Assembly: GCA_016841205.1 (NCBI GenBank)
Contig: JAENZP010000013.1
Location: 31,231 to 95,230, forward strand
Length of the DNA stretch: 64,000 bases
Direction of reading: 5' to 3'
Origin: Desulfoscipio geothermicus
GTDB taxonomy: Bacteria > Bacillota > Desulfotomaculia > Desulfotomaculales > Desulfallaceae
A program made the position numbers and the translations under genes. A model generated the notes under the pieces. It saw only the letters and a program-made list of their open reading frames with translations, made no database searches and was not told where the DNA came from. Every line of letters starts with the position of its first letter. Position 1 is the first letter of the stretch. This document shows, piece after piece, positions 60,450-63,915 of the stretch.

Positions 60450-60632
60450 TTAACTCGCACGAAAAAATAATGTTTTAGGTAAACCCAAAAGAAAGGCTAT
60501 GCGTACAAACAACGCTCCGTCAACAACTCCGGAAATGCCTATCGAACGTTTTCCGTCTTTACCGGGTTCTAGTATCCAGACTCCTTCGATGGCAGGCGGG
60601 TTATAGCTTTTTAGGTGGATGGAATTAATCAT
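60450..60632 (-). CDS. 60-aa small ORF downstream of the radical SAM gene
   Basis: ORF on the same strand, 34 nt after the rSAM stop; no family recognised; weak RBS. Confidence 0.3.
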   Translation of the reverse strand: MINSIHLKSYNPPAIEGVWILEPGKDGKRSIGISGVVDGALFVRIAFLLGLPKTLFFRAS

Positions 60633-60666
60633 TTTCTCTGCTCAAATGTCAAACTCTTTGATTGTT

Positions 60667-61818
60667 TTACCTAAGTACCCGATTTATTTTTTTATCCAAA
60701 TATCTTAATCTTGGAATAATCTCTTTATGGATCTCACATGCAATAGATTTTCCGGCTCTAGAACCGGTCATCAACAATTTATCATGCGGACATCCTCCCT
60801 GACAGGTAGTTCTATATTCACACACCCTGCACTCATCCGGAATGTCTTGGCTGGTAAGATCATAATGAAATGTATCACATTGTATTACACTTAACGGGTC
60901 TTTATCAAATATTGTTCCAGTTTTAAAGGAATGTTCTCTAATACATGCTCCAACTGTTCCATCGGGAAATACTACAGCATTTCTTTTCCCGCAAGGATAC
61001 GGAGAAACTTCATGTTCCCATAAAGAGCTTAAAGTATCCAACAAGAAAGTAGTATGCACATCGTAGCCCTTAATAATATAACTTTCCAATAAGTCAAGTA
61101 ATTCATGATATCTCTTTAGTAATCTTTTATTATATTCGGTATCTAATCCCCTAAAGATATCCTTTTGGTATCTTAAACGATAGCCATTTTCCAAACCAAA
61201 TCTTGATATATCAAGCAGTCTATCTAAGTTATAATCATCCATAGTGGCTACTATGGTTTGGCCGATAACATTTGATCTCTCACCAATTATCTTCATTCTT
61301 CTTGATGTTTCTTCGATACCGGTGTCTGCAATATTTGTTGTAATCCATTGGATATCTTCAAGATCATCCCAATTTACTGAGTCTACTAAATCACCATTTG
61401 TATAAAGGTAACCCTGCATGCCATCGGTATTTCTGTAAACGGAATCCATAACTTTCTTTATCCTATCCGTTCTCAGCAAAGGTTCCCCGCCAAGGAAGCC
61501 AACAGTATTCACTTTAACATTGTTAATTTTCCAGAGTTCTGGAATCCACTCTAATAATCTGGAAAATGTGTTCTCATCCATTTCCATTTTATTGTCATCG
61601 CCCACTTGATTATAGGCATAACAATAGTCACACCTTCTTGTGCACTTGTACGACAGAAATAAGATAAACCAGAATGAAGGAAACTTTTCCCAATAACCGT
61701 CTCCCTTTATTCTGTTATCTTCTTTAGCATACATTCTTTTTAATTGTTTAACATGTTCGGTTTGTTTTCTCATTGTTATACTGCCTCGCATTTCTTTATT
61801 CTTTTTTATTGGCCACAT
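60667..61818 (-). CDS. Radical SAM/SPASM-domain protein (peptide- or cofactor-maturase-like)
   Basis: 'YKCTRRCDYCYAY' CxxxCxxC; 'GFLGGEPLL'; C-terminal C-X..-'CRVCEYRTTCQGGCP'-X..-C SPASM pattern. Confidence 0.88.
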   Translation of the reverse strand: MWPIKKNKEMRGSITMRKQTEHVKQLKRMYAKEDNRIKGDGYWEKFPSFWFILFLSYKCTRRCDYCYAYNQVGDDNKMEMDENTFSRLLEWIPELWKINNVKVNTVGFLGGEPLLRTDRIKKVMDSVYRNTDGMQGYLYTNGDLVDSVNWDDLEDIQWITTNIADTGIEETSRRMKIIGERSNVIGQTIVATMDDYNLDRLLDISRFGLENGYRLRYQKDIFRGLDTEYNKRLLKRYHELLDLLESYIIKGYDVHTTFLLDTLSSLWEHEVSPYPCGKRNAVVFPDGTVGACIREHSFKTGTIFDKDPLSVIQCDTFHYDLTSQDIPDECRVCEYRTTCQGGCPHDKLLMTGSRAGKSIACEIHKEIIPRLRYLDKKINRVLR

Positions 61819-61886
61819 TTTTCATCAAATTATCGTTTTAATGCTTCCCCGGCAGGTCTTTAAGGCAATAAACCAACCATTTTGCG

Positions 61887-63710
61887 TCATTTTGTATTAA
61901 ATAATTCCACAACATATGCTGAAACTTTTTCTCCATCCGCAAGCATACCTCTACCAGGCGGTATTTCCACAAATAAGTTGCAATCTGCCAAAGTCCTCAG
62001 AACACCCTGCCCGGTAAGGATGTTTGCCTTGGCGATTCCTCCCTCAATAGAAAGCTTGGCGGTTTTTATCCTTCTAGTATCAGTTTTTTTGTAATCGCCG
62101 GATAAAATAACCTCGACCTTGCGAGGCAAGATATCTTTATAGCCCAACATCTTTTTAATAACTGGTTTAACCAAAAGCTCAAAAGCTGTAAATGCAGCTC
62201 CCGGATGACCCGATAAACCCAGGATTAATTTGCCGTCTTTTTTCCCCGCCACAAAGGACTTGCCGGGTCTGATATCTATTCCTGAAAATAAGCCCTCTAT
62301 CCCTGCCATGGCCATGGCAGGTTCAACCAAGTCAAAATCTCCGGCTGATGCTCCTCCTGTAGTAATGACCAAATCTGCTTTTTCCAGAGCGGTTTGCACA
62401 AGTGCGGCTATTTTTACAAGATCATCCGGCACAATACCCATAGGGACAGGTTCCACCCCAATTTTTCTCAGAAGTGCTGTCAGGAAATACTGATTGCTAT
62501 TATAAATACAACCGCTACCAAGTGTTTGTCCAAGCTCTGTCAATTCACTGCCTGTACTGATAATAGCAACTTTAACTGTTGAATAAACAGGTATGCCACT
62601 AAACCCCGCTTCAGCCAACAACCCAAGCAGGGACGGAGTAACCGGTGTACCCTTGGAGACAGCAGTTTCACCGGCTGTTATTCCTTGGCCGGTTTTGGCT
62701 ACGTTGGTTCCCGCCATAACCTGGTGATAAACCTTAACATATGAACCCTCTCGCTGAACCTCCTCGCACTTGACTATCGCATCAGCCCCCGAAGGAAGCG
62801 GCGCCCCTGTCATCACTTTAACTGCAGTCTGGGTCGAAACTTGAAAATAGTGGTTCTTGCCAGGCGCCACTTTTCCTAAAACAAGGAGTCTGACCGGATC
62901 ATTTTCCGAAACATTTTCGGTATCCCTGCTAAGTAGGGCATACCCGTCAACTGAAGAGCGATTGAAGCTCGGGACATCTTCCTGAACCGTCAAGTCTTCC
63001 AGAATTGCACGCCCCAAGGCCTCACTTAAAGGCAACTGTTCTCCTGGACTGATGATCACATTCTGCAGTAGGAGATTACGAGCTTCTTCCAGAGGTAATT
63101 TCCTTCTCCAACTCTGGGTCGAGATAGCATAATAGTCTTTGAGAATATTAATATTTTCAGGACAGTTAATCCTGACCTTGGGATAAAATTCAGTAATCTT
63201 GGAAATACTCGGTTTGTCTTTTGGAATAGGAAAAGTGCTATATTTTTTTACTCCTGAGTACAAGGCATATGCATTGTTGTTTTTAATACTCTCTCCTGCA
63301 AAGCTATAATTTTCATACTTAGCTGTTTTTTCGTGGTGTATTTTTAGATAACCGGCTTCTTCTTCTATATCTTCAAGCTGAATTACCGAATCAGCGTCTT
63401 CCGGTATCGGAGCACCGGTCATTATTCTTATTGCTGTTCCTTTTGTAACTTGTTTAGCGATAATGGAGCCACCTGCCTCTATAGGATTATTTATTAATGC
63501 CCCGTTCGTGTCACTTGCGATTATTGCATAACCGTCCATTGAGGAATTATCTACAGGAGGTTTCAATATTTCCGGTACAATATCTTCATATAAAACCTGA
63601 TTAGATGCTTTCTTAATAGCCATGTTTTTACAGCTCAGATAGCTGGCAGAGTTTAAAACAATTTTCTGTGCTTCTTCTTCAATGGATACCATTAATTTTT
63701 TATCTCTCAT
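61887..63710 (-). CDS. moeA: MoeA-type molybdopterin molybdenumtransferase with duplicated N-terminal module
   Basis: 'MTGAPIPEDADSVI' and 'MTGAPLPSGADAIV'; 'ITTGGASAGDFD', 'GLSGHPGAAFTAFELL'. Confidence 0.92.
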   Translation of the reverse strand: MRDKKLMVSIEEEAQKIVLNSASYLSCKNMAIKKASNQVLYEDIVPEILKPPVDNSSMDGYAIIASDTNGALINNPIEAGGSIIAKQVTKGTAIRIMTGAPIPEDADSVIQLEDIEEEAGYLKIHHEKTAKYENYSFAGESIKNNNAYALYSGVKKYSTFPIPKDKPSISKITEFYPKVRINCPENINILKDYYAISTQSWRRKLPLEEARNLLLQNVIISPGEQLPLSEALGRAILEDLTVQEDVPSFNRSSVDGYALLSRDTENVSENDPVRLLVLGKVAPGKNHYFQVSTQTAVKVMTGAPLPSGADAIVKCEEVQREGSYVKVYHQVMAGTNVAKTGQGITAGETAVSKGTPVTPSLLGLLAEAGFSGIPVYSTVKVAIISTGSELTELGQTLGSGCIYNSNQYFLTALLRKIGVEPVPMGIVPDDLVKIAALVQTALEKADLVITTGGASAGDFDLVEPAMAMAGIEGLFSGIDIRPGKSFVAGKKDGKLILGLSGHPGAAFTAFELLVKPVIKKMLGYKDILPRKVEVILSGDYKKTDTRRIKTAKLSIEGGIAKANILTGQGVLRTLADCNLFVEIPPGRGMLADGEKVSAYVVELFNTK

Positions 63711-63762
63711 TGTGATAATCTCCCCTGCAAAGCTTTAATTTTAAGTAATTAATAAAAGGAGA

Positions 63763-63803
63763 ATGCCGGGCAGTTATGCAAAAAGCAAAGCTAGCCCGGC
63801 ATA
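63763..63803 (-). terminator. Terminator of the moeA Moco-type riboswitch
   Basis: Minus strand ATGCCGGGC...GCCCGGCATTCTCCTTTTA. Confidence 0.75.
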
Positions 63804-63805
63804 AA

Positions 63806-63915
63806 TACCGAATCCATCTCCTTTTCGCAATGGAAGGCACGCCCGTTTCCCAACGCACCCATAGGGCCAATAAACCATGACATCCTGCTTTAGGTCATCT
63901 AGCTCGGAGAGACAA
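63806..63915 (-). promoter_or_regulatory. Moco-type riboswitch aptamer upstream of moeA
   Basis: Minus strand CTCCGAGCTAGATGACCTAAAGC..GTCATGGTTTATTGGCCCTATGGGTGCGTTGGGAAACGGGCGTGCCTTCCATTGCGAAAAGGAGA; position and sequence fit RF01055. Confidence 0.85.

Follow-up and report, generated by a model that had tools for sequence, protein, structure and literature searches.

A radical SAM/SPASM enzyme of Desulfoscipio geothermicus is genomically tied to one clade of the tungsten subunit BamB

What is the role of a radical S-adenosylmethionine (SAM) enzyme with a SPASM domain encoded behind moeA and a riboswitch of the molybdenum cofactor (Moco) type? The question is raised by the end of a 64,000-nucleotide stretch of the Desulfoscipio geothermicus genome (contig C2, positions 31231–95230), referred to below as the window; its right edge is the end of the contig, which has 95,230 bases. 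Near this edge the riboswitch, moeA, the radical SAM/SPASM gene (its product is called rSAM below) and a 60-aa open reading frame (ORF) follow one another on the minus strand, and in this order and strand the initial annotation was correct. It suggested two roles for rSAM: a maturase acting in trans on a Nif11-type precursor peptide encoded in the same window, or a maturase associated with a tungsten enzyme. The second is well supported as an association, given that rSAM is genomically tied to BamB, the tungsten, ring-reducing subunit of class II benzoyl-CoA reductase. We consider it somewhat probable that rSAM serves one BamB clade as its dedicated accessory (maturation) enzyme.

The rSAM gene occupies positions 60667–61773 (−) and encodes 368 residues matching PF04055. 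The ORF itself spans 60667–61818, and the coding sequence was set to 60667–61773 because the family alignment begins at the second methionine (Met16); the distance from moeA, reported earlier as 68 nt, is then about 113 nt. In an alignment of 27 sequences, C44, C48 and C51 of the CX3CX2C motif and C261, C277, C315, C318, C324, C328 and C346 of the SPASM domain are invariant, ten cluster cysteines in all, so that the ligands for three clusters are conserved. The complete seven-cysteine signature, together with a TIGR04085 score of 39.1 bits (cut-off 27), confirms the earlier assignment to SPASM enzymes.

Comparison with known SPASM subfamilies, proposed earlier as a check, placed rSAM in no named NCBIfam equivalog. 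Against 18,950 NCBIfam models, none of the best 25 matches reached an equivalog cut-off, and the SPASM domain model alone was matched at its cut-off. The best equivalog was the PapB-type ranthipeptide maturase NF047865 (58.7 of 340 bits), and the scores for the nif11-peptide maturase TIGR04064 (54.1 of 518.7 bits) and the anaerobic sulfatase maturase TIGR03942 (49.8 of 349.45 bits) also fell below their cut-offs. All 27 aligned sequences give the same below-cut-off picture (E≤1e-8). TIGR04317 (W_rSAM_matur), a SPASM enzyme paired with a tungsten enzyme of the AOR superfamily, resembles rSAM in this pairing but scores 23.8 of 380 bits, and ten other places in the home genome (G000) score higher. 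On these sequence comparisons we propose that rSAM represents a new bamB-linked subfamily. The AlphaFold model of rSAM has a mean predicted local distance difference test value (pLDDT) of 73.8, which is moderate, being weak in the SPASM region, and a predicted template modeling (TM) score of 0.78. The best full-length fold match of this moderate-confidence model is the anaerobic sulfatase maturase 4K36_B (TM 0.69/0.70), whereas the first match by E-value is the sactipeptide maturase 5WHY/5WGG. Anaerobic sulfatase maturases (4K36–4K39) are similar to rSAM in size, in the radical SAM core with a seven-cysteine SPASM domain, and in lacking an additional leader-binding domain at the N-terminus.

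Scanning 85,488 species genomes yielded 27 relatives of rSAM with 63–95% identity from Desulfotomaculum-type Bacillota, deltaproteobacterial metagenome-assembled genomes (MAGs), Planctomycetota, Chitinivibrionia and others. An AOR-superfamily gene lies on the same strand as rSAM in 22 of these 27 loci. It was identified as bamB by its match to the Geobacter metallireducens BamB-I structure 4Z3W (E 1e-278), and its own neighbor as bamC (E 3e-73). The rSAM gene directly precedes bamB in nine loci and directly follows bamC in six (15 direct-neighbor loci), and in L041, L044 and L054 the rSAM stop and the bamB start overlap as ATGA. An apparent 1028-aa ORF in L054 was considered as an rSAM–BamB fusion and rejected, as its N-terminal half is a wrong-frame translation and the true arrangement is the ATGA overlap. 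In four of the five loci lacking bamB, rSAM lies close to the end of its contig or the contig is short; the fifth, L056, has adjoining bamE and bamF. Like the Geobacter enzyme, these systems comprise homologs of bamB, bamC, bamD, bamE and bamF. In the single-contig genome G005 the genes are collinear in the order riboswitch, bamB-C-D-E-F, P3-less riboswitch, MoeA remnant, MoeA, rSAM. The moeA–rSAM pair of the window thus matches the distal part of such a bam operon layout, at a contig break. A lone 135-aa fragment of the C-terminal (SPASM) part of rSAM (L067:8161–8568, G036:C9) was also noted in Pelotomaculum terephthalicicum, in addition to the full copy there.

Of the three bamB copies in the home genome, the one at C14:53636–55618 belongs to the clade discussed below; it is intact and accompanied by bamC and bamD, with a Moco riboswitch 1.8 kb upstream. 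This riboswitch (L064) seems to retain a P3-like stem. Between it and the clade bamB (L064:9686–11637) there are two small ORFs of 87 and 117 aa with the common stretch NKHNYWFYRLTSACILSGGDNLVNVDKN.

The association with BamB was then quantified in 121 related genomes, nine with rSAM and 112 without. All nine rSAM genomes encode a BamB 71–100% identical to the home C14 copy, and a full-length BamB of this clade is found in only two of the 112 others, G055 and the 86%-complete G014 (9/9 vs 2/112, Fisher p 4.9e-12, kinship not corrected). A partial BamB with 76% identity in G110 was left out of the tree. In the tree of 60 BamB proteins, those from rSAM genomes form one clade with 100/100 support, and outside it are Geobacter 4Z3W and all BamBs from rSAM-less genomes except G055 and G014. 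Co-occurrence in this sample is thus near-exclusive. Outside the sample, all 20 further rSAM genomes have BamB. In 19 of them it belongs to the clade, and the remaining one, G135, has a neighboring BamB. The rSAM and BamB distance matrices correlate with r 0.59, a value reached in none of 5000 permutations. Several rSAM genomes, e.g. the Syntrophorhabdus MAG G129, have a single BamB, which belongs to the clade; since it is the sole BamB there, the clade protein is probably the benzoyl-CoA reductase subunit itself.

Several observations weigh against a dedicated BamB maturase. Among 348 genomes drawn from the phylum of G129, 16 have a clade BamB (at least 71% identity) and only three have rSAM, two of the three being known already; a looser rSAM search in the other 13 Desulfobacterota genomes with clade BamB found none. 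Clade members with and without a linked rSAM are not told apart by any residue of BamB or BamC, so a target residue cannot be named. Clade BamB contains no conserved clade-specific site of the sulfatase type C/S-x-P/A-x-R, which, like the low TIGR03942 score, is a difference from anaerobic sulfatase maturases. The reference structure 4Z3W comes from outside the clade. Finally, peptide SPASM maturases are also among the fold matches of the rSAM model, whose limited pLDDT and weak SPASM region were described above. The rSAM–clade BamB link therefore runs one way: with at least 13 Desulfobacterota clade-BamB genomes lacking it, rSAM would be an accessory factor that is not needed by every clade BamB. 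A wider tree shows the members without rSAM scattered through the clade, which suggests loss or alternative solutions.

The same patchiness, and the location of rSAM within aromatic-degradation operons, would also be expected if it were a catabolic enzyme acting on a metabolite of the aromatic pathway and merely sharing the operon. We consider this improbable. The full seven-cysteine SPASM domain and the size and fold resembling anaerobic sulfatase maturases argue against it, as does the stop/start overlap with bamB itself, and a tungsten-type riboswitch on moeA–rSAM suits maturation better than catabolism.

This riboswitch is located at 63802–63921 (−). It matches the Moco/Tuco (tungsten cofactor) aptamer RF01055 with 56.8 bits in cmscan (gathering threshold 36, E 5.8e-11), and the P3 stem is deleted in the alignment. 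P3-less Moco RNAs were linked to the tungsten cofactor (Tuco type) by Regulski et al. 2008 (PMC2408646). As an RF01055 aptamer without P3 upstream of a pterin-cofactor gene, the window riboswitch resembles these RNAs (PMC2408646), and by its sequence we class it with those for which sensing of the tungsten cofactor has been proposed. The initial annotation called it the third Moco-type riboswitch; the riboswitch itself is well founded, and the ordinal is a count within the window only, given that the home genome has 26. The largest number that the 2008 paper gives is at least 15 (PMC2408646).

P3-less riboswitches head moeA–rSAM in the window genome, L031, L038 and G005, and a MoeA paralog is located close to rSAM in many loci (L032, L033, L035, L036, L038, L039, L041, L046, L047, L050 and L056). 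Both facts would also agree with a role of rSAM in tungsten cofactor chemistry or cofactor insertion, as a variant pterin- or metal-loading step together with MoeA, the BamB protein then not being its substrate. This alternative seems unlikely, although it deserves more weight than the catabolic one. The MoeAs of different loci are non-orthologous (31–36% identity outside one lineage) and many rSAM–bamB pairs have no adjoining moeA, whereas bamB is the constant partner. Moreover, where the substrate of a SPASM enzyme is known, it is mostly a peptide or a protein. The crystallized BamB, though from outside the clade, carries an ordinary W-bis-MPT cofactor (PMC12096430).

Maturation of BamB by rSAM could be pictured as follows. 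At low levels of the tungsten cofactor, the P3-less riboswitch would permit expression of moeA–rSAM, the direction of control being our inference. MoeA would insert tungsten into the pterin. The rSAM protein, built like an anaerobic sulfatase maturase from a radical SAM core and a two-cluster SPASM domain without a leader-binding domain, would generate a 5'-deoxyadenosyl radical to modify BamBC as its presumed substrate. The modified site would most likely be a residue of BamB, altered before or during cofactor loading. Tentatively, and with less confidence than in the accessory role as such, we suggest that rSAM uses radical chemistry to give BamB/BamC or the tungstopterin a modification not seen before, and that this tunes ring reduction at very low potential in a large clade of aromatic degraders that live as syntrophs or sulfate reducers. 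Class II benzoyl-CoA reductase performs a biological Birch-type ring reduction at a very low redox potential, which at the tungsten cofactor is about −650 mV (PMC12096430).

In the clade BamBs the tungsten ligand Cys322 as well as Glu257 and His260 are invariant, as in Geobacter BamB-I, whereas His255 of the proton/Zn relay is lost and one extra residue follows position 333; the Geobacter protein is separated from the rSAM-linked clade with 100% support. Clade-specific residues include P93, G214, D55, N526, S456 and H579 (Geobacter numbering). A radical-made diatomic sixth tungsten ligand was considered and dropped, since according to a review of BamB the sixth ligand is water (PMC12096430). 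The same review makes no mention of a radical SAM enzyme (PMC12096430), and a search of the literature, covering open-access papers only, found no dedicated radical SAM maturase for class II benzoyl-CoA reductase. The conservation of rSAM and its coupling to bamB across anaerobes of several phyla point to a hitherto unconsidered maturation step. The structurally known Geobacter enzyme would not have revealed such a step because it lies outside the clade. An unclassified SPASM enzyme thereby gains a single testable partner.

The moeA gene of the window (61887–63710, −) encodes 607 aa and differs from a standard moeA, as which it had been annotated: the gene is present, and it joins two MoeAs in one reading frame, the first cut short and the second complete. 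Pfam domains in the product are two MoeA_N, one MoCF_biosynth and one MoeA_C. Based on Pfam and on locus comparison, the shrunken first MoeA domain comprises residues 1 to about 190–200 (63111–63710, −) and lacks MoCF_biosynth, and the complete MoeA comprises residues 201–607 (61887–63110, −). Over its N-terminal ~190 residues the product shares 59% identity with the second MoeA of Pelotomaculum terephthalicicum (L033), where the two MoeAs are separate. Tandem moeA genes seem to be merging into one: there are two full genes in L033, a remnant and a full gene in G005 and G002, and fusions of 607 aa in the window, 596 aa in L031 and 526 aa in L032.

The degenerate first MoeA, a mobile-intron remnant abutting the 3' end of rSAM, and the location of the unit at a contig end, apart from the assembled bamBCD, could indicate that riboswitch–moeA–rSAM is a decaying relic in the home genome. 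We find this very improbable, as rSAM is intact and keeps all invariant residues, the second MoeA is complete, and another part of the genome carries an intact clade bamBCD.

The intron remnant is the 60-aa ORF (60450–60632, −), which had been listed as an operon partner of rSAM. Comparison of DNA with L031, a locus with a 95%-identical rSAM, identified it as part of a decayed group II intron reverse transcriptase/maturase fragment, with homology at 60510–60673. The counterpart in L031 is a 315-aa ORF matching TIGR04416 (E 5.6e-66); 164 nt of the window are 87% identical to this reverse transcriptase gene, and a TGG codon has become TGA in frame just before the ATG. As the homology begins inside the last codons of rSAM, the 34-nt gap between rSAM and the ORF is a deletion scar. 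No related ORF was found in the other rSAM loci.

That identification also removes the 60-aa ORF as a candidate precursor of a ribosomally synthesized and post-translationally modified peptide (RiPP), and leads to the other role suggested initially, maturation in trans of the Nif11 precursor encoded at 10888–11124 (−) or of another small peptide. The weak domain matches to nif11 and ranthipeptide maturases could be read in its favor, as could a slight enrichment of PF07862 (Nif11) proteins, which occur in five of the nine rSAM genomes and in 23 of the 112 others (p 0.03, kinship not corrected). The enzymes behind TIGR04064 and NF047865 share with rSAM the radical SAM/SPASM core, but its scores are one tenth to one sixth of the cut-offs and no precursor gene lies alongside. 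Four of the nine rSAM genomes have no Nif11 protein, two of them (G004 and G005) rated 100% complete, so the co-occurrence expected by the initial annotation did not hold. In several loci rSAM overlaps bamB or bamC or lies 12–24 nt from it, leaving no space in between for a precursor peptide. We therefore rejected maturation of Nif11 in trans on family scores and co-occurrence; a RiPP role in general is largely refuted and scarcely credible.

The remaining argument for Nif11 was that both genes are controlled by Moco-type riboswitches. It is a weak one: with 26 copies heading many unrelated genes of the home genome, often before apparently secreted proteins, shared riboswitch control is not evidence of shared function, and the riboswitch was rejected as a non-specific sign of a common pathway. 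In addition, the Nif11 gene is the second one behind tandem P3-less riboswitches (13016–13302, −), following a gene for a CBS/sigma-54-type regulator (11182–12912, −), so this regulator is the nearer target of their control. Many of the 26 riboswitches directly precede not cofactor genes but long ORFs for secreted or surface proteins, judged by an apparent signal peptide at the start, e.g. in L005, L006, L010–L012, L015 and L018–L020, an unusual expansion. Another tungsten-enzyme candidate, for which the Rfam scan of the window gave no riboswitch match, is found at 41482–43690 (+), where the gene of a 4Fe-4S ferredoxin-type protein is followed by that of a 580-aa AOR-family protein.

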